The position numbers were made by a program, and so were the translations under genes. A stretch of 64,000 bases of DNA from Formosa sp. Hel1_33_131 (GTDB lineage: Bacteria; Bacteroidota; Bacteroidia; Flavobacteriales; Flavobacteriaceae), in assembly GCA_949499105.1 (NCBI GenBank), contig CATEFX010000062.1, positions 1 to 64,000 on the forward strand, written 5' to 3'. The notes beneath the pieces were generated by a model. The model saw only the letters and a program-made list of their open reading frames with translations, was not told the DNA's origin and did not search any database. This document shows, piece after piece, positions 17,843-46,682 of the stretch. Position 1 is the stretch's first letter. Every line of letters begins with the position of its first letter.

Positions 17843-19198
17843 ATGTCAAACAACATCCGAATAAAAAAAGGTTTAGATATAAAGTTAGTTGGAGAGGCTG
17901 CCTTAACCAAAAGTGAAGCCATCAAAAGTAACTTTTATAGTATCAAACCCGAAGATTTTCACGGACTTACTCCCAAACTATTAGTCAAAGCTGGCGCGAA
18001 AGTAAAAGCTGGTGAGCCTATTTTTTATGACAAATCCAACGAAGCGATTCAGTTTGTTTCTCCTGTTTCAGGGGAATTAGTTGAAATCATCCGAGGAGAG
18101 AAACGTCGTATTTTAGAAATTAAAATACAAGCAGAAAAAACGCAGACGTTTTTAGAGCATCAAAAAATTGAAGTTAAAAGTGCCAAAGCAGAAGACATTA
18201 AAGCAACGCTTCTTGCTTCTGGTTGCTGGCCATTTATCATGCAGCGTCCCTATGATGTCATTGCAAACCCAAACAAGACACCGAAAGGAATTTTTGTTTC
18301 GGCCTATGCCTCCGCACCCCTAGCAGCAGATTATGATTTTGTGCTAACGGGGAAGCAAGCAGAATTACAAGCGGCAGTTACTGCGCTTTCAAAACTAACA
18401 ACTGGAGAAATCCACGTGAGTGTTTCCAAAGATTCACATTCACCATTTACCAATTTAGAAGATGTTGTAACGCACACTGTGTCTGGGCCACATCCTTCTG
18501 GGAATGTTGGAACACTCATCAACAAAATTGATCCGATCAATAAAGGGGAGGTTGTTTGGACCGTTTCTCCACAAGATTTAGTGATCATCGGCGAATTGCT
18601 TTTAACAGGTAAATTCAATGCCGAAAGAATCGTAGCTCTTGCAGGATCTGGAATCAAAGAACCTCGTTATTTAGTTACCAAAATTGGAAGCGAGATCGCT
18701 ACCATGGTGTATGATCGTGGAATCGAAAAAGAGGCCAATGTTCGAATTATATCGGGCACTGTTTTAAGTGGAAAAGAAATAAAACCAGACGGCTATTTAG
18801 GATACTACTCTAATGTAGTGACGGTCATTCCCGAAGGCGATGATTATGAGTTTTTTGGATGGACCAAACCTGTATTTGATAAAGTGTCAACTTCAAGAGC
18901 ACTAACATTTTCTTGGTTAACACCTAATAAAAAATTCGATTTAAATACCAATACCAACGGAGAACATAGAGCCTTTGTAATTACAGGGTCCTATGAAGAA
19001 GTATTTCCATTGGATATTTTTCCAATGCAGATTTTAAAAGCGTGTATGTATCAAGATCTTGATGAAATGGAAGCGCTCGGAATGTATGAAATCGCTCCAG
19101 AAGATTTTGCATTGACTGAATTTGTATGTGTTTCTAAACAACCACATCAAAAAATAATAAGAGAAGGACTAGACTTAATGCTTAAAGAAATAGGATAA
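17843..19198 (+). CDS. nqrA: Na+-translocating NADH:quinone reductase subunit A
   Basis: The peripheral cytoplasmic subunit of the Na+-pumping NADH:quinone oxidoreductase. It is 451 residues and starts IRIKKGLDIKLVGEA, the normal family N-terminus, with a lipoyl-like beta-sandwich region (ETVSPVSGELVEIIRGEK type sequence near residues 70-95: QFVSPVSGELVEIIRGEKRR). The middle carries the SVSKDSHSPF and THTVSGPHPSGNVGTLI segments typical of NqrA. First gene of nqrABCDEF, separated by 2 bases from nqrB. NqrA contributes to quinone binding. Confidence 0.96.
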   Translation: MSNNIRIKKGLDIKLVGEAALTKSEAIKSNFYSIKPEDFHGLTPKLLVKAGAKVKAGEPIFYDKSNEAIQFVSPVSGELVEIIRGEKRRILEIKIQAEKTQTFLEHQKIEVKSAKAEDIKATLLASGCWPFIMQRPYDVIANPNKTPKGIFVSAYASAPLAADYDFVLTGKQAELQAAVTALSKLTTGEIHVSVSKDSHSPFTNLEDVVTHTVSGPHPSGNVGTLINKIDPINKGEVVWTVSPQDLVIIGELLLTGKFNAERIVALAGSGIKEPRYLVTKIGSEIATMVYDRGIEKEANVRIISGTVLSGKEIKPDGYLGYYSNVVTVIPEGDDYEFFGWTKPVFDKVSTSRALTFSWLTPNKKFDLNTNTNGEHRAFVITGSYEEVFPLDIFPMQILKACMYQDLDEMEALGMYEIAPEDFALTEFVCVSKQPHQKIIREGLDLMLKEIG

Positions 19199-19200
19199 AA

Positions 19201-20406
19201 ATGAGTTTAAAAAGTAATTTACACACCCTTAAAGAAAAGTACAAAGGCACTAAAATGGCTCCAGCCTTTAATGCCCTGCATACTTTTTTGTATTTACCAA
19301 ACGAAATCACGCACAATGGCACCCACATTAAAGCAGCTGATGATTTAAAACGGACCATGAATACCGTCATTTTGGCGATGGTTCCTTGTTTAATTTTCGG
19401 AATGTTTAATGCAGGCTATCAACACCATTTGGCCTTAGGAACTATTGAGTCCGCTCAAGGGTTTTTAGGTGCATCGTTTTGGACATGGAGTAATTTAGTC
19501 GTCGGAATGTGGAAAGTACTGCCACTAGTGGTGGTGTCTTACGGCGTTGGATTGGCCATTGAGTTCCTGTTTGCAGTGATTAAAGGTCATGAAGTGGAAG
19601 AAGGCTACCTGGTGACAGGAATGTTGGTTCCGCTTATTGTTCCTATTGATTTACCACTTTGGATGCTTGCAGTTGCAGTTGCATTTGGAGTCGTTATCGG
19701 GAAAGAAGTTTTTGGAGGAACAGGAATGAATATTCTGAATCCTGCACTTACCATTCGTGCCTTTTTGTTCTTTGCCTATCCAACTTGGATGAGTGGCGAT
19801 AAAGTATGGGTCCATGGCGCAGTGGAACGTGCTGGGACGGCTGATGCAATCTCAGGAGAAACCATCTTAGGAAGTTATGCTCAAAGTCAAGAAGTCGTCT
19901 ATAGCTATGCAGATATGTTCTTTGGAATTATCCCCGGATCTATCGGAGAAACCTCAAAATTATTAATTATTCTTGGCGCATTGTTCTTGATATTTACAAA
20001 AATAGGAAGCTGGAGAATTATTGTAAGTACCCTTATTGGAGCCCTTACAATGGGACTTGTTTTTAATGGCGTCGTGGATGCCGGATGGATTTCAAGTTCT
20101 AGTAAATTTTTCGGATTAATGAGTGTGCCTTTCTGGCAACACTTAATTATAGGAAGTATCTTGTTTGGAGCCGTCTTTATGGCCACCGATCCAGTGACTG
20201 CCGCACAAACCAATAAAGGGAAATGGATTTATGGGTTTTTGATTGGATTTATCTCCATTATGATCCGTGTGTTTAATCCAGCCTATCCAGAAGGGGTCTT
20301 TTTAGCCATCCTTCTAATGAATGTGTTCGCACCAACCATTGATCATTACGTGGTTCAAGGAAATGTCAAAAAACGATTGAAACGTCTTAAAGTTAAAACT
20401 ACATAA
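19201..20406 (+). CDS. nqrB: Na+-translocating NADH:quinone reductase subunit B
   Basis: Integral membrane subunit of the NQR complex, 401 residues with about ten hydrophobic segments. It carries a covalently bound FMN and takes part in Na+ transport. The FMN-attachment threonine is visible in GSIGETS (T251). VIGKEVFGGTGMNILNPALT and FMATDPVTAAQTNKGKWIYG are family signatures. The N-terminal about 50 residues are cytoplasmic and hydrophilic, as in other NqrB proteins. It depends on ApbE, encoded at the other end of the cluster, for flavin attachment. Confidence 0.96.
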   Translation: MSLKSNLHTLKEKYKGTKMAPAFNALHTFLYLPNEITHNGTHIKAADDLKRTMNTVILAMVPCLIFGMFNAGYQHHLALGTIESAQGFLGASFWTWSNLVVGMWKVLPLVVVSYGVGLAIEFLFAVIKGHEVEEGYLVTGMLVPLIVPIDLPLWMLAVAVAFGVVIGKEVFGGTGMNILNPALTIRAFLFFAYPTWMSGDKVWVHGAVERAGTADAISGETILGSYAQSQEVVYSYADMFFGIIPGSIGETSKLLIILGALFLIFTKIGSWRIIVSTLIGALTMGLVFNGVVDAGWISSSSKFFGLMSVPFWQHLIIGSILFGAVFMATDPVTAAQTNKGKWIYGFLIGFISIMIRVFNPAYPEGVFLAILLMNVFAPTIDHYVVQGNVKKRLKRLKVKTT

Positions 20407-20408
20407 TT

Positions 20409-21167
20409 ATGAGTACGAATACAGACACAAATAAATATACGATTCTCTTTGCCATTGGTATGGTGGTGATCGTAGGATCCTTATTAGCGTTTACAGCCTC
20501 TACTCTTAAACCAAACATTCAAGAGAATGAGCGTATGGAAACCCAACAAAATATTTTGTACACAATGGGGATCAACGAAAATGGAGCGACAGACATTAAG
20601 TTTATTGGAACCGATAAAGTTGCTGGTGAATTTTCTAAATACATCTCAAAACAATTGATTATTAATAAGGACGGTAGTTCTGAAGAGAATTCAGAAGCCT
20701 ACCTTATTGATGTTAAAAAAGAACAAGCCAAAGCCAAAAATGGGGGTACAAGACAGTTGCCGTTGTTTGTAGGTCAAAAAGATGGGCAAGCATTTTATAT
20801 TGTACCCATTAGAGGAAAAGGACTATGGGATGCGATCTGGGGGTATGTAGCACTTGATGAAGATATGGTGGTTCAAGGCGCCTTTTTTGATCATGCAGGG
20901 GAAACACCGGGTTTAGGAGCGAATATCAAACAACGTTACTTTATGGACGATTTTGTTGGTGAAAAATTATTAACTGCTTCTGGAGACTTCAAAGGAATCA
21001 CGGTTGCCAAAGGAAATAATGACCCAAAGAATCTTACGAAAGATGATTATGAAGTAGATGCATTAGCCGGAGCGACCATTACAGGCGACGGCGTGTCTGC
21101 AATGATAAAGAGCGATCTAAAATTGTATTTACCGTACTTTAAAAATTTAAAAACTCAATTGAATTAA
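20409..21167 (+). CDS. nqrC: Na+-translocating NADH:quinone reductase subunit C
   Basis: A 252-residue subunit with one N-terminal membrane segment (about residues 8-30) and a periplasmic FMN-binding domain. The flavinylation site is DALAGAT with T223 as the attachment residue. The usual recognition motif has Ser or Thr four residues before the attachment site's end (S/T-G-A-T), while here that position is Ala; I believe this variant occurs in related bacteria. Other conserved parts are PIRGKGLWDAIWGYVAL and DHAGETPGLGANI. It is 2 bases after nqrB. Confidence 0.95.
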   Translation: MSTNTDTNKYTILFAIGMVVIVGSLLAFTASTLKPNIQENERMETQQNILYTMGINENGATDIKFIGTDKVAGEFSKYISKQLIINKDGSSEENSEAYLIDVKKEQAKAKNGGTRQLPLFVGQKDGQAFYIVPIRGKGLWDAIWGYVALDEDMVVQGAFFDHAGETPGLGANIKQRYFMDDFVGEKLLTASGDFKGITVAKGNNDPKNLTKDDYEVDALAGATITGDGVSAMIKSDLKLYLPYFKNLKTQLN

Positions 21168-21168
21168 C

Positions 21169-21813
21169 ATGGGACTACTTTCAAAAAAAGATGCCAAATT
21201 AATAACGGATCCGTTAGCCGATAATAACCCAATTACAATTCAAGTTTTGGGGATTTGTTCTGCTTTAGCGATCACGGCCGAACTCAAAGCGTCTCTAGTG
21301 ATGGGGATTGCAGTACTTTTCGTTTTAGGAATTGGAAACGTGGTCATTTCGTTAATGCGAAATATCATCCCTTCAAAAATTAGAATTATCGTGCAACTGA
21401 TTGTGGTAGCGTCCTTAGTAATTATTGTCGATCAAGTACTTAAAGCCTATGCTTATGAACTCAGTAAAACGCTCTCTGTATTTGTAGGGTTGATAATTAC
21501 CAACTGTATTATTATGGGAAGATTTGAAGCTTTTGCGCTTGGAAATGGCCCATGGAAAGCCTTTTTAGATGGGATTGGAAATGCTCTTGGATATGCAGTG
21601 ATCCTGCTTATTGTTGGGTTTTTTAGAGAACTTTTAGGATCAGGAACTCTTTTTGGAATTCCAGTTCTTGGCGATCCAATCGAAAAAACTGGACTTTACT
21701 CTACTGGCTATGAAAACAATGGGTTTATGCTCATGCCTCCAATGGCTTTGATTATTGTAGGACTCATTATTTGGGTACAACGTAGTAGAAACACATCACT
21801 AATTGAACATTAA
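21169..21813 (+). CDS. nqrD: Na+-translocating NADH:quinone reductase subunit D
   Basis: A 214-residue membrane protein with six hydrophobic segments, the NqrD half of the NqrD/NqrE pair that forms the Na+ path and holds an intramembrane iron site. The conserved Cys residues are present: one in LGICSALAITAELK and one in IITNCIIMGRFEAFA. The C-terminal LMPPMALIIVGLIIWVQRS is typical. One base separates it from nqrC, so translation is likely coupled. Confidence 0.95.
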   Translation: MGLLSKKDAKLITDPLADNNPITIQVLGICSALAITAELKASLVMGIAVLFVLGIGNVVISLMRNIIPSKIRIIVQLIVVASLVIIVDQVLKAYAYELSKTLSVFVGLIITNCIIMGRFEAFALGNGPWKAFLDGIGNALGYAVILLIVGFFRELLGSGTLFGIPVLGDPIEKTGLYSTGYENNGFMLMPPMALIIVGLIIWVQRSRNTSLIEH

Positions 21814-21844
21814 TTTCTCTAGTAAGAATTTAAAATAAAAGACA

Positions 21845-22561
21845 ATGATAGAACATATCGAATTATTTTTTAAGTCCATTTTTATTGATAATATGGTGTT
21901 TGCGGTTTTCTTGGGCATGTGCTCATATTTAGCCGTCTCTAAAAAAGTAGCAACAGCGGTTGGATTAGGAGCCGCCGTGATTTTTGTACTGGCCATCACC
22001 GTGCCTTTAAACTGGTTGTTAGACCAATATTTATTACAACCCGGTGCACTCGTTTGGTTAGGTCCAGAATTTGCAGAGTATGACCTTAGTTTCTTATCGT
22101 TCATCATGTTTATTGCAACGATTGCAACCATGGTTCAACTTGTAGAAATTGTGGTTGAAAAATTTTCACCATCCTTATACAATTCATTAGGAATTTTCTT
22201 ACCCTTAATTGCGGTAAACTGTGCCATCTTAGGTGGGTCTTTGTTCATGCAATCGCGTGAGATCGAAACTTTAGGATTGGCTGTTAATTACGGAATTTCA
22301 TCTGGAATAGGTTGGTTTTTAGCTATTTTGGCCATTGCAGCCATTCGCGAAAAAATTCGATATTCAAACGTGCCTGCCCCCTTAAGAGGTTTAGGAATTA
22401 CATTTATTGTCACTGGACTCATGGGCATTGGTTTCTTGAGCTTTGGAGGCATGCTTACAGGTGGAGATGAAGAAGTAAAAGAAGCACCAAAAGAAGTCGT
22501 TGTAGAAACGATCGCAATTGAAAAAGAAGAAGTATCAAACCAAACACAAATAGTTAACTAA
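21845..22561 (+). CDS. nqrE: Na+-translocating NADH:quinone reductase subunit E, with an acidic C-terminal tail
   Basis: The partner of NqrD, an inverted six-helix membrane protein. The conserved cysteines appear in FLGMCSYLAVSKK and AVNCAILGGSLFM. The family core ends near residue 203 (FLSFGGMLTGG). The protein then continues about 33 residues with a charged tail rich in Glu, Lys and Val (DEEVKEAPKEVV and onward), making it 238 residues against about 200 in Vibrio. The tail is a plain continuation of the frame, not a fusion. nqrF begins one base after its stop. Confidence 0.95.
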   Translation: MIEHIELFFKSIFIDNMVFAVFLGMCSYLAVSKKVATAVGLGAAVIFVLAITVPLNWLLDQYLLQPGALVWLGPEFAEYDLSFLSFIMFIATIATMVQLVEIVVEKFSPSLYNSLGIFLPLIAVNCAILGGSLFMQSREIETLGLAVNYGISSGIGWFLAILAIAAIREKIRYSNVPAPLRGLGITFIVTGLMGIGFLSFGGMLTGGDEEVKEAPKEVVVETIAIEKEEVSNQTQIVN

Positions 22562-22562
22562 T

Positions 22563-23870
22563 ATGATTTTAGCCGCTGGAACAACCGGAACCATTTTAGC
22601 TACCGTTGTAGCATTTTTAGTGACCTCGTTACTACTCATTAGTGTGCTCCTTTTTGTAAAACAAAAACTATCACCTTCAGGACCTGTAAAGATCCTAATC
22701 AATGGTGAACGAGAAATTGAAGTAGCCTCAGGTGCTACTTTATTATCCACATTAAGTGGAAACAAAATATTTTTACCCTCTGCTTGTGGAGGCGGAGGAA
22801 CCTGTATTCAATGTGAGTGTCACGTCCTCTCTGGAGGTGGTGAAGCCTTGCCAACAGAAACCCCGCATTTCTCAAGGAAAGAGCTAAAACATGGCGCCCG
22901 TTTATCGTGTCAGGTGAAGGTAAAGCAAGATATGGAAATCACCATTCCAGAAGAAGTGTTTGGAATCAAAAAATGGGAAGCGACTGTGGTGCGTAATTAC
23001 AATGTTGCCTCATTTATTAAAGAATTTGTAGTGGAAATCCCTGAAGATATGGGGTATAAAGCAGGTGGATATATCCAGATTGAAATTCCAGAATGTGAAA
23101 TCAATTTTAAAGATATTGATATTACTGCGCATCCAGAAGAACATGAAACACCCGATAAGTTTCAAGCAGAATGGGATAAGTTCGGTCTTTGGCCCTTAAC
23201 CATGAAAAACAATGAAACCGTAGAGCGTGCTTATTCAATGGCATCCTATCCTGCGGAAGGTCGTGAGGTGATGTTAAACGTTCGTATTGCAACGCCACCA
23301 TGGGACCGTGCGAATAACGGTTGGATGGATGTGAATCCAGGGGTTGCATCGTCGTATATTTTTGCTCAAAAACCAGGCGACAAAGTTACCATTTCTGGAC
23401 CTTACGGAGAATTCTTCATAAATGAAAGCGAGTCAGAAATGCTATATGTTGGTGGAGGTGCTGGAATGGCGCCCATGCGTTCGCATTTATACCATCTATT
23501 CAGAACTCTTAAAACAGGCCGTAAAGTATCTTACTGGTACGGAGGGCGTTCTAAACGTGAGTTATTTTATTTAGAACATTTTGAAGCTTTAGAAAGAGAT
23601 TTCCCTAACTTCAAATTTCATTTAGCACTCTCTGAACCAATGGAAGAGGATAATTGGAAAGTCAAAGAAAATATTGATGCCGATGGCGATGGTTTTATTG
23701 GATTTATTCATAACTGTGTGATCGATAATTATTTAAGTCATCATGAGTCCCCAGAAGATATCGAACTCTATTTCTGTGGACCACCATTAATGAACCAAGC
23801 GGTTCAAAAAATGGGTGAAGATTTTGGAATTCCAGATGAACACATTCGATTTGATGATTTTGGAGGGTAA
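22563..23870 (+). CDS. nqrF: Na+-translocating NADH:quinone reductase subunit F
   Basis: The NADH-oxidising input subunit, 435 residues. An N-terminal membrane helix (residues 5-30) anchors a ferredoxin domain with [2Fe-2S] ligands C75, C81, C84 and C116. Next come an FAD domain (RAYSMASYP) and an NADH domain (VGGGAGMAPMRSH, YGGRSKRELFY, FCGPPLMNQAV) ending in DDFGG. It is about 25 residues longer than the Vibrio protein, with extra sequence around EEHETPDKFQAEWDKFGL before the FAD motif. Last of the six nqr genes and followed by a terminator. Confidence 0.96.
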   Translation: MILAAGTTGTILATVVAFLVTSLLLISVLLFVKQKLSPSGPVKILINGEREIEVASGATLLSTLSGNKIFLPSACGGGGTCIQCECHVLSGGGEALPTETPHFSRKELKHGARLSCQVKVKQDMEITIPEEVFGIKKWEATVVRNYNVASFIKEFVVEIPEDMGYKAGGYIQIEIPECEINFKDIDITAHPEEHETPDKFQAEWDKFGLWPLTMKNNETVERAYSMASYPAEGREVMLNVRIATPPWDRANNGWMDVNPGVASSYIFAQKPGDKVTISGPYGEFFINESESEMLYVGGGAGMAPMRSHLYHLFRTLKTGRKVSYWYGGRSKRELFYLEHFEALERDFPNFKFHLALSEPMEEDNWKVKENIDADGDGFIGFIHNCVIDNYLSHHESPEDIELYFCGPPLMNQAVQKMGEDFGIPDEHIRFDDFGG

Positions 23871-23894
23871 TCAATCCTAAATTTTTTATTAATG

Positions 23895-23922
23895 AAGCCC
23901 AGCACTTGTGTTGGGCTTTTTG
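23895..23922 (+). terminator. Terminator after nqrF
   Basis: AAGCCCAGCA pairs with TGTTGGGCTT (one G-T wobble) around a short loop, followed by a T-rich run. The run merges with the promoter element of the next gene. Confidence 0.75.
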
Positions 23923-23930
23923 TATTTTTG
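23923..23930 (+). promoter_or_regulatory. Promoter -7 element for the 125-residue protein gene, very close to its ATG
   Basis: TATTTTTG fits TAnnTTTG. Its last base is only five bases before the ATG (TTTGTAGTATG), so the transcript would start at or next to the start codon. The element also uses the T-run of the nqrF terminator. Confidence 0.6.
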
Positions 23931-23934
23931 TAGT

Positions 23935-24312
23935 ATGAGTAAAGCACTTTCAAAACAAGAGATGCACAATCTGGCAATGAACCATGTCGGAAAAGACCTA
24001 GAATCCCGAGGTTTTGAGTTTGTCGCTATCAATAGTAAACTCAAAAAACATCCTCAATTTGTGTGTATTGATAAAAACAGTCAATACTTTTTTGTCATAG
24101 TTCGGGTGGTTAAATTACCAGACAATCCAAATAATTATGATGTGGTTTGGATGGAAACCTTTAAAAATCATGCACAAGAAAAAGATGCCAAAGTATTATA
24201 CGCAGGTGTAGGAATTTCGAACCCCAAAGGAGAAGACCTTCCCGTTTATCTGAACGAAGAATACCTTATTGAATACAACGGTATTCAAGTCATTGAAACG
24301 AATCTTAATTAA
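23935..24312 (+). CDS. Small cytoplasmic protein of unknown function between nqrF and apbE
   Basis: A 125-residue soluble protein with no signal, no membrane segment and one Cys. It begins with a helix (SKQEMHNLAMNHVGKDLESR), followed by alternating beta strands (GFEFVAINSK, PQFVCIDKNSQYFFVIVRVV), a helix containing MET FKNHAQ-type residues, and a strand-loop VLYAGVGISNPKG. I believe close homologues sit in this position in other flavobacteria and are sometimes mislabelled as NQR subunit F, but it has no ferredoxin or flavin motif. The layout loosely recalls a PD-(D/E)XK nuclease fold without catalytic residues; that is speculation. The ATG was chosen over an upstream TTG that lies in the terminator. 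Confidence 0.8.
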   Translation: MSKALSKQEMHNLAMNHVGKDLESRGFEFVAINSKLKKHPQFVCIDKNSQYFFVIVRVVKLPDNPNNYDVVWMETFKNHAQEKDAKVLYAGVGISNPKGEDLPVYLNEEYLIEYNGIQVIETNLN

Positions 24313-24319
24313 AAATAGA

Positions 24320-25294
24320 ATGATTAAAAACCTGCTTTTTATAATCTGTTTTACGTTTGTGTCGTGTTCGAATTCACCTAAACAATTGCGTGCTTCCGGG
24401 CCTATATTTGGCACCACCTTTTCTATAATTTATGATAGTAGTGAAAATTTAGAATCTGAATTTGACAGTTTGTTTTTTGAAATCAATCAGTCGATGTCGA
24501 CTTATATCCCGACCTCAGACATCTCTAAAGTTAATTCAAATATTGATGTGACAGTAGATTCTCATTTTGAATCGGTTTTCAACGCTTCAAAAGCTATTTA
24601 TACTGCAACAGAAGGTAAATTCGACCCTACAATAGGCGCTGTGGTCAATGCATGGGATTTTGGGCCTGAAGGTAAAATAGAATCCTTAGACAGTCTTAAA
24701 ATTCATGAATTGATGCTATCCGTGGGATTGGATAAAGTTATATTGAATAATGGTCGTATCTCAAAACCACTTCCAACACGATTGGATTTTAATGCCATTG
24801 CCAAAGGCTATGGCGTGGACGTGATTGGTCAATTTTTAGAATCTCAAAACATTCAAAATTATTTAATCGAAATAGGGGGCGAAATTCGTGCGAGCGGTTT
24901 TAATTCTTCTAAAAAAGCAGCATGGAAAGTTGGTATTCAACATCCAGATTTAAGTGGCGATCAACCTTACATCAATACATTAGCGCTTCAAAATGAGTCC
25001 ATGGCAACTTCGGGCACGTATCGTAAGTTTAAAATCGATTCCAATGGAAATCGTTATACCCATATCATTGATACCAAAACGGGTTATCCAAGTCGTACTA
25101 ATATATTAAGTGTGTCTGTGGTCACTAGTGATTGCATGACTGCCGATGCCTATGCCACGGCGCTTCAAGCGATGGGAGTAGAAGGCGTTAGATTGTTTCT
25201 AAAAACACATACAGAACTAAAAGTGCTTATTGTTTTTGTGACCGATGCAAACGAGCTGCAAACCGAAGTATTTAATGGGTTTCCATTAAATTAG
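24320..25294 (+). CDS. apbE: FAD:protein FMN transferase (lipoprotein)
   Basis: ApbE uses FAD to attach FMN covalently to threonines, here most likely T251 of NqrB and T223 of NqrC. The 324-residue protein has a lipoprotein signal (MIKNLLFIICFTFVSC, Cys 16) and so works outside the cytoplasmic membrane, where the NqrC flavin domain is. Motifs are GPIFGTTFSI, the metal/FAD segment DFNAIAKGYGVDVI, IGGEIRASG, THIIDTKTGYPS and SDCMTADAYATALQAMG. An upstream in-frame start would overlap the previous gene and bury the signal peptide, so the inner ATG was used. Its stop overlaps the convergent methyltransferase gene by 4 bases. Confidence 0.95.
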   Translation: MIKNLLFIICFTFVSCSNSPKQLRASGPIFGTTFSIIYDSSENLESEFDSLFFEINQSMSTYIPTSDISKVNSNIDVTVDSHFESVFNASKAIYTATEGKFDPTIGAVVNAWDFGPEGKIESLDSLKIHELMLSVGLDKVILNNGRISKPLPTRLDFNAIAKGYGVDVIGQFLESQNIQNYLIEIGGEIRASGFNSSKKAAWKVGIQHPDLSGDQPYINTLALQNESMATSGTYRKFKIDSNGNRYTHIIDTKTGYPSRTNILSVSVVTSDCMTADAYATALQAMGVEGVRLFLKTHTELKVLIVFVTDANELQTEVFNGFPLN

Positions 25295-46475: not shown

Positions 46476-46682
46476 CTACGCATGTTCAGGTTCAGAGCAA
46501 TCTTTGTATTCGTCAGGAGTTTTGCCGCAAAAACCACAGGCTTCTCCATCTTTATTAATCATGGGGTTTTGACTGGCACAAGTTCCTGCAAATTCACCAT
46601 CTTTTTTTGCCCACAATTTTATGGAAATTCCTCCAACAGCAATTCCTAAAAGCACTAATGTAATTAAAAATAGAGTCATCAT
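46476..46682 (-). CDS. Small membrane-anchored Cys-containing protein
   Basis: About 68 residues: one N-terminal membrane helix (TLFLITLVLLGIAVGGISI), then a short polar domain KLWAKKDGEFAGTCASQNP and ACGFCGKTPDEYKDCSEPE. Four cysteines (one in GTCAS, the CGFC pair and one in KDCS) could bind a metal or form disulfides outside the membrane. I recall similar small proteins in flavobacteria without known function. Two adjacent ATG codons are possible starts; an upstream in-frame ATG would lie in the promoter. Confidence 0.75.
   Translation of the reverse strand: MMTLFLITLVLLGIAVGGISIKLWAKKDGEFAGTCASQNPMINKDGEACGFCGKTPDEYKDCSEPEHA

Follow-up and report, generated by a model that had tools for sequence, protein, structure and literature searches.

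The window analysed here is a 64,000-nucleotide stretch of DNA from Formosa sp. Hel1_33_131, a member of the Flavobacteriaceae (assembly GCA_949499105.1, contig CATEFX010000062.1, positions 1 to 64,000 of the forward strand). On its plus strand lie the six structural genes of the Na+-NQR, nqrA, nqrB, nqrC, nqrD, nqrE and nqrF (17843..23870), all of which score above their NCBIfam cut-offs. They are followed on the same strand by an intrinsic terminator with an 11-pair stem and then a T-rich tail (23894..23919), a TAnnTTTG box inside that tail (23923..23930), an open reading frame of 125 amino acids with an ATG start (23935..24312), and apbE, encoding FAD:protein FMN transferase (24320..25294; PF02424, E 2.2e-79). 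We refer to the reading frame as orf and to its product as P0001. A 125-residue reading frame between nqrF and apbE had been described from the letters alone, and it is confirmed exactly as described.

Comparison of orf with 17 close relatives reveals 112 differences at first, 24 at second and 763 at third codon positions, and 708 of the 768 codons with a single difference are synonymous. This bias and synonymous excess indicate that P0001 is a real protein under purifying selection. The protein is hydrophilic (GRAVY -0.41, pI 6.1), and neither a cofactor motif nor a membrane segment is seen by eye, in agreement with its earlier description as soluble and free of cofactor motifs. P0001 belongs to no Pfam or NCBIfam family. 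The ApbE domain is absent from it in the Pfam search, PF02424 matching the next gene instead. The best Pfam E-values, 0.043 for P0001 and 0.001 for one of 34 member sequences, each concern a different unrelated family and were taken as chance. The same judgement was made for matches to PDB sequences, whether with P0001 alone (receptor fusion constructs at E 0.0028, with no single stretch passing, then maltose-binding proteins at E 1.3) or with its profile (best E 0.4, not Hjc). Judging from titles and the starts of abstracts, we found no paper on this gene.

The boundary between orf and the pump genes is marked by both a terminator and a promoter element. Scanning the region returned two terminator-like sites against 1.1 expected, so the count alone says little for a terminator after nqrF; its inverted repeat is the same in 16 of the 20 upstream stretches of relatives listed. 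A sigma-70 promoter scan was likewise uninformative (7 found, 7.1 expected), and the orf-apbE promoter was not among its hits. The TAnnTTTG box was assessed at 80 loci, the closest among 331 relatives from named genome records, which are 84-99% identical and come from Formosa, Winogradskyella, Psychroserpens and others; the analysis is confined to these close homologues. In 73 of these 80 loci a box is present within 60 bp upstream of the start codon, where shuffled sequences would yield 6.0, and in 64 it stops exactly 4 nt short of the ATG. Within the window, 2 of 62 greedily chosen reading frames of at least 100 amino acids carry a box at that spacing. The proposal that orf has its own promoter downstream of the nqr terminator is therefore supported.

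This arrangement also predicts where the transcript begins. In a study of F. psychrophilum (PMC9723704), the TAnnTTTG box spans -12 to -5 relative to the transcript start; of the mRNAs mapped there, 5.5% are leaderless. Combined with the 4-nt spacing observed here, that position places the predicted +1 at the A of the ATG. Judged from this spacing, the orf-apbE mRNA is probably leaderless. The box shares sequence with the T tail of the nqr terminator, so that the end of the pump operon is also the start of the orf-apbE unit. The evidence supports orf as the first gene of a separate unit, orf-apbE, served by a -7 box of the Bacteroidota type.

The position of orf relative to its neighbours was then compared across the family, in a sample of 149 genomes. 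Homologues of orf occur in 128 of them (129 before a weak match in G035 was set aside), and nqrF and apbE in 146 each. In 118 of the 128 carriers, the gap between orf and apbE is -8 to 137 bp. The remaining gaps measure 338 bp (one genome), 1-2.5 kb (three) and 421 kb (one), with apbE on another contig in four genomes and not found in one. Similarly, of the 80 loci assessed for the box, 78 have apbE immediately 3′ of orf, the exceptions being L062 and L067. The distance from nqrF, in contrast, ranges from a minimum of 27 bp: it does not exceed 187 bp in 48 carriers and is between 578 bp and 17.4 kb in 68, while nqrF is on another contig in ten, on the opposite strand in one and not detected in one. 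With a tight gap to apbE and a variable distance to nqrF, the partner of orf by position is apbE. The conserved placement suggested earlier thus stands beside apbE and falls beside nqrF.

Several loci depart from the usual order. Two nqr-positive genomes, G022 and G023, retain orf away from both nqr and apbE, with other neighbours; in G023, orf, nqr and apbE are all kept though far apart. In the two genomes of genus g131 examined (G131 and G454), orf follows a DEAD-box helicase gene, away from nqrF and with apbE not adjacent. At these loci (L151 6004-7730 and L198 5442-7156), the helicase stop and the orf start nearly touch or overlap. Duplications also occur. Genome G124 carries tandem orf paralogues between nqrF and apbE (L112, 3450-3824 and 4504-4878), with 64% and 81% identity to P0001, and G142 has two tandem apbE-like genes after orf (L119, 2956-4994).

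The association of orf with NQR and apbE is well supported. Among the 128 carriers of the family sample, 127 have nqrF. The exception, G138, is 99% complete and has orf-apbE, with neither nqrF nor nqrB detected; it is the single clear case against a strict link between orf and NQR. (A second genome scored as nqrF-negative, G112, is 64% complete and has nqrB; orf is absent.) The converse does not hold, since orf is missing from 19 nqrF-positive genomes in the family sample. Nine of these have nqrF and apbE 4-110 bp apart, and several of the others are fragmented or incomplete. In a phylum sample of 395 genomes, orf is present in 19 of 21 nqrF-positive members of the family and in 0 of 46 nqrF-positive genomes of other families. 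Consequently, NQR as such does not depend on orf, and the idea of a general NQR factor has to be given up. Half of the genomes of 2.2 Mb or less in the family sample lack orf (12 of 24, against 9 of the other 125), suggesting that streamlined genomes drop the gene, although small drafts are also less complete.

Genus g127 offers a comparison on a finer scale. Its 199 genomes include 15 with orf and 21 with nqrF; all 15 carriers are nqrF-positive (nqrF 74-78% identity), and orf occurs in 0 of the 178 nqrF-less genomes. Six genomes (G540, G542, G554, G560, G570 and G710) have a distant nqrF (59-61% identity) and no orf, and perhaps acquired this NQR separately. Linkage by itself would account for part of the co-occurrence of orf and NQR. 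A tree of pruA, covering 30 genomes out of the 199 (the 15 carriers, four of the six with distant nqrF, and 11 without) requires at least four changes of the joint orf/nqr state on supported branches, and five on the best tree. In all four independent pairs orf goes with the nqrF of the carriers (p 0.125, too few for significance); if any nqrF is taken as the trait, this holds for 2 or 3 of 4. With about 8 kb between pruA and nqrF in several g127 genomes, pruA is not a fully independent marker.

An AF2 model of P0001, built from 34 sequences, has a pLDDT of 91.7, a pTM of 0.84 and elements in the order H-E-E-E-H-E-E, which contain the core PD-(D/E)xK fold of a helix, a three-strand sheet, a helix and a strand. 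VIA-align places it closest to the archaeal Holliday-junction resolvase Hjc (1gef_B, Z 10.1, 2.4 A over 95 residues, 15% identity), followed by a splicing endonuclease (2zyz_C, Z 9.1 over 87 residues, 17% identity); SPARDA, VRR-NUC and FAN1 nucleases are among the further structural neighbours. Foldseek gave no E-value below 0.001 for the model, and neither P0001 nor any of the 34 members has a Pfam match to an Hjc model. In size and predicted fold, P0001 resembles Hjc (1gef, 2wcw) and the tRNA-splicing endonuclease (2zyz). Those enzymes process DNA or tRNA, whereas the context of P0001 is that of respiratory pump genes.

The catalytic motif of these enzymes, however, is missing. Of 186 matches, 168 are distinct homologues of nearly full length, and residues were counted in these. 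In all 168, positions 40 and 41 are P and Q, where the fold usually carries Asp. A (D/E)xK motif in strand 51-60 is found in 0 of 168, and any acidic residue in that strand in 1 of 168. The four catalytic residues of Hjc presumably fall, by an approximate mapping, near M15, Q41, V56 and V58. Conservation is found elsewhere: H11, N16, N33, S34 and D69 are kept in 97-100% of the homologues, and position 57 is R or K in 91%. An active nuclease has the predicted fold in its favour, and was rejected on this loss of motif; we regard it as the least credible of the readings considered here. The sequence-only guess of a degenerate nuclease-like fold thus holds for the predicted fold, with Hjc nearest, and not for activity. 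Distant relatives occur outside the family. In five genomes of family f18, proteins of about 260 amino acids match the P0001 profile with their C-terminal half (E 1.3e-8 to 7.1e-5). The two tested, both on the minus strand (L171 1300-2085 and L173 1486-2262), belong to no Pfam or NCBIfam family. They keep the VVVRA strand, but share 20-21% identity with P0001, have an extra N-terminal half and come from genomes without detected nqrF.

The genomic setting recalls that of known NQR maturation genes. In V. cholerae, apbE and nqrM adjoin nqr, and the portion of the source available to us names only ApbE and NqrM as additional maturation proteins (PMC12174285). The gene for P0001 similarly adjoins apbE and nqr, but its product has neither an ApbE domain nor a visible membrane helix or Cys motif, and in our samples it is limited to one family, where a separate NqrM-like gene exists. 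NqrM has one membrane helix and a Cys motif. Could P0001 replace this iron-delivery protein? A PF04400 search matched 0 of 76 genomes, but also 0 of 14 controls, so that the apparent lack of NqrM shows little. PF04400 is not among the Pfam matches of P0001 itself, and the best-kept Cys among the columns listed is C44, present in 91% of the 168 homologues.

A better candidate for NqrM is encoded elsewhere. An 84-aa membrane protein (L190) lies beside apbE in family f24, and its homologues occur in 50 of 67 nqrF-positive genomes of the phylum sample, including 21 of 21 from the family of P0001. None was found in 13 nqrF-less genomes, which all belong to genus g127; the nqrF-positive genomes that lack a homologue, 17 in number, are from families f11, f12, f17 and f18. 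Of the 50 copies, 30 were examined, and all 30 retain three cysteines (C...CxxC). The copy in the window, a 68-aa membrane protein with a Cys...CxxC arrangement on the minus strand (46476..46682), lies about 22 kb from nqr and matches no Pfam or NCBIfam family. On its architecture, we propose it as a candidate Bacteroidota NqrM, an unlinked helper of the same pump. With such a Cys-containing protein in the same genomes, there is no need for P0001 as a substitute, and we consider that role very improbable.

Our preferred reading is that P0001 is a nuclease-dead, cytosolic PD-(D/E)xK pseudo-enzyme, made together with ApbE, that aids the biogenesis or control of the Flavobacteriaceae-type Na+-NQR; our confidence in this reading is evenly balanced. 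A protein of this fold would have lost its nuclease site, and the resulting pseudo-enzyme would be co-expressed with ApbE from a distinct unit of two genes whose mRNA is probably leaderless. The N-terminus of ApbE is, by eye, a lipoprotein-like signal (MIKNLLFIICFTFVSC), whereas no export signal is visible by eye in P0001. The two products should therefore lie on opposite sides of the membrane, making a direct part for P0001 in FMN transfer unlikely. Na+-NQR has large cytosolic parts, NqrA and NqrF. From these features we infer where P0001 may act, what it may bind and which step it may assist: it would work from the cytosol, where its most likely target is a subunit of NQR or an intermediate in its assembly, with ApbE attaching FMN across the membrane from it. 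A pump-associated pseudo-enzyme that is optional and family-specific fits a factor for assembly, stability or control. The candidacy of P0001 as a new, family-specific NQR/ApbE accessory is thus partly supported. A narrower version, in which an inactive nuclease fold was recruited as a lineage-specific NQR assembly or quality-control factor and a leaderless bicistronic mRNA couples it to ApbE, is more tentative, and we would put it at rather less than an even chance.

The main rival is a nucleic-acid-binding regulator, in which the dead fold would bind RNA or DNA and tune apbE or nqr, for example through the leaderless orf-apbE mRNA. Its closest folds are those of Holliday-junction resolvases, tRNA-splicing endonucleases and other nucleases, the basic residue at position 57 is widely kept, and the predicted start of the orf-apbE mRNA is both unusual and conserved. 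The adjoining DEAD-box helicase gene in the two g131 genomes points the same way, but this neighbourhood is found in one genus only, most homologues adjoin apbE instead, and the pI of 6.1 argues against nucleic-acid binding. We judge this regulator possible but improbable. Somewhat less probable again is that orf is carried along in the apbE unit, serving a function unrelated to NQR and retained through linkage and clade history. This would account for G138, which keeps orf without detectable nqrF or nqrB, for the other neighbours in G022, G023 and the two g131 genomes, and for the 19 nqrF-positive family members that lack orf. Against it are the purifying selection on P0001, the absence of orf from every nqrF-less g127 genome sampled, and its retention in G022 and G023 away from both nqr and apbE.

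Should P0001 indeed be an accessory of NQR, a third partner with a dead-nuclease fold, found family-wide, would be a new component in the biogenesis of a respiratory enzyme that is important in the sea. It would also give a role to a gene outside every Pfam and NCBIfam family, and provide an example of a nuclease fold put to use beyond nucleic-acid chemistry.

Phage or plasmid origin of P0001 was considered and rejected, with no plasmid or phage matches at E 0.01. The best PHROGs match has an E-value of 0.3, and PADLOC returned none. In IMG/VR, one of 60 candidate stretches encodes a relative of P0001, a truncated copy of 85 amino acids, on a contig that also carries genes that look repressor-like by eye.
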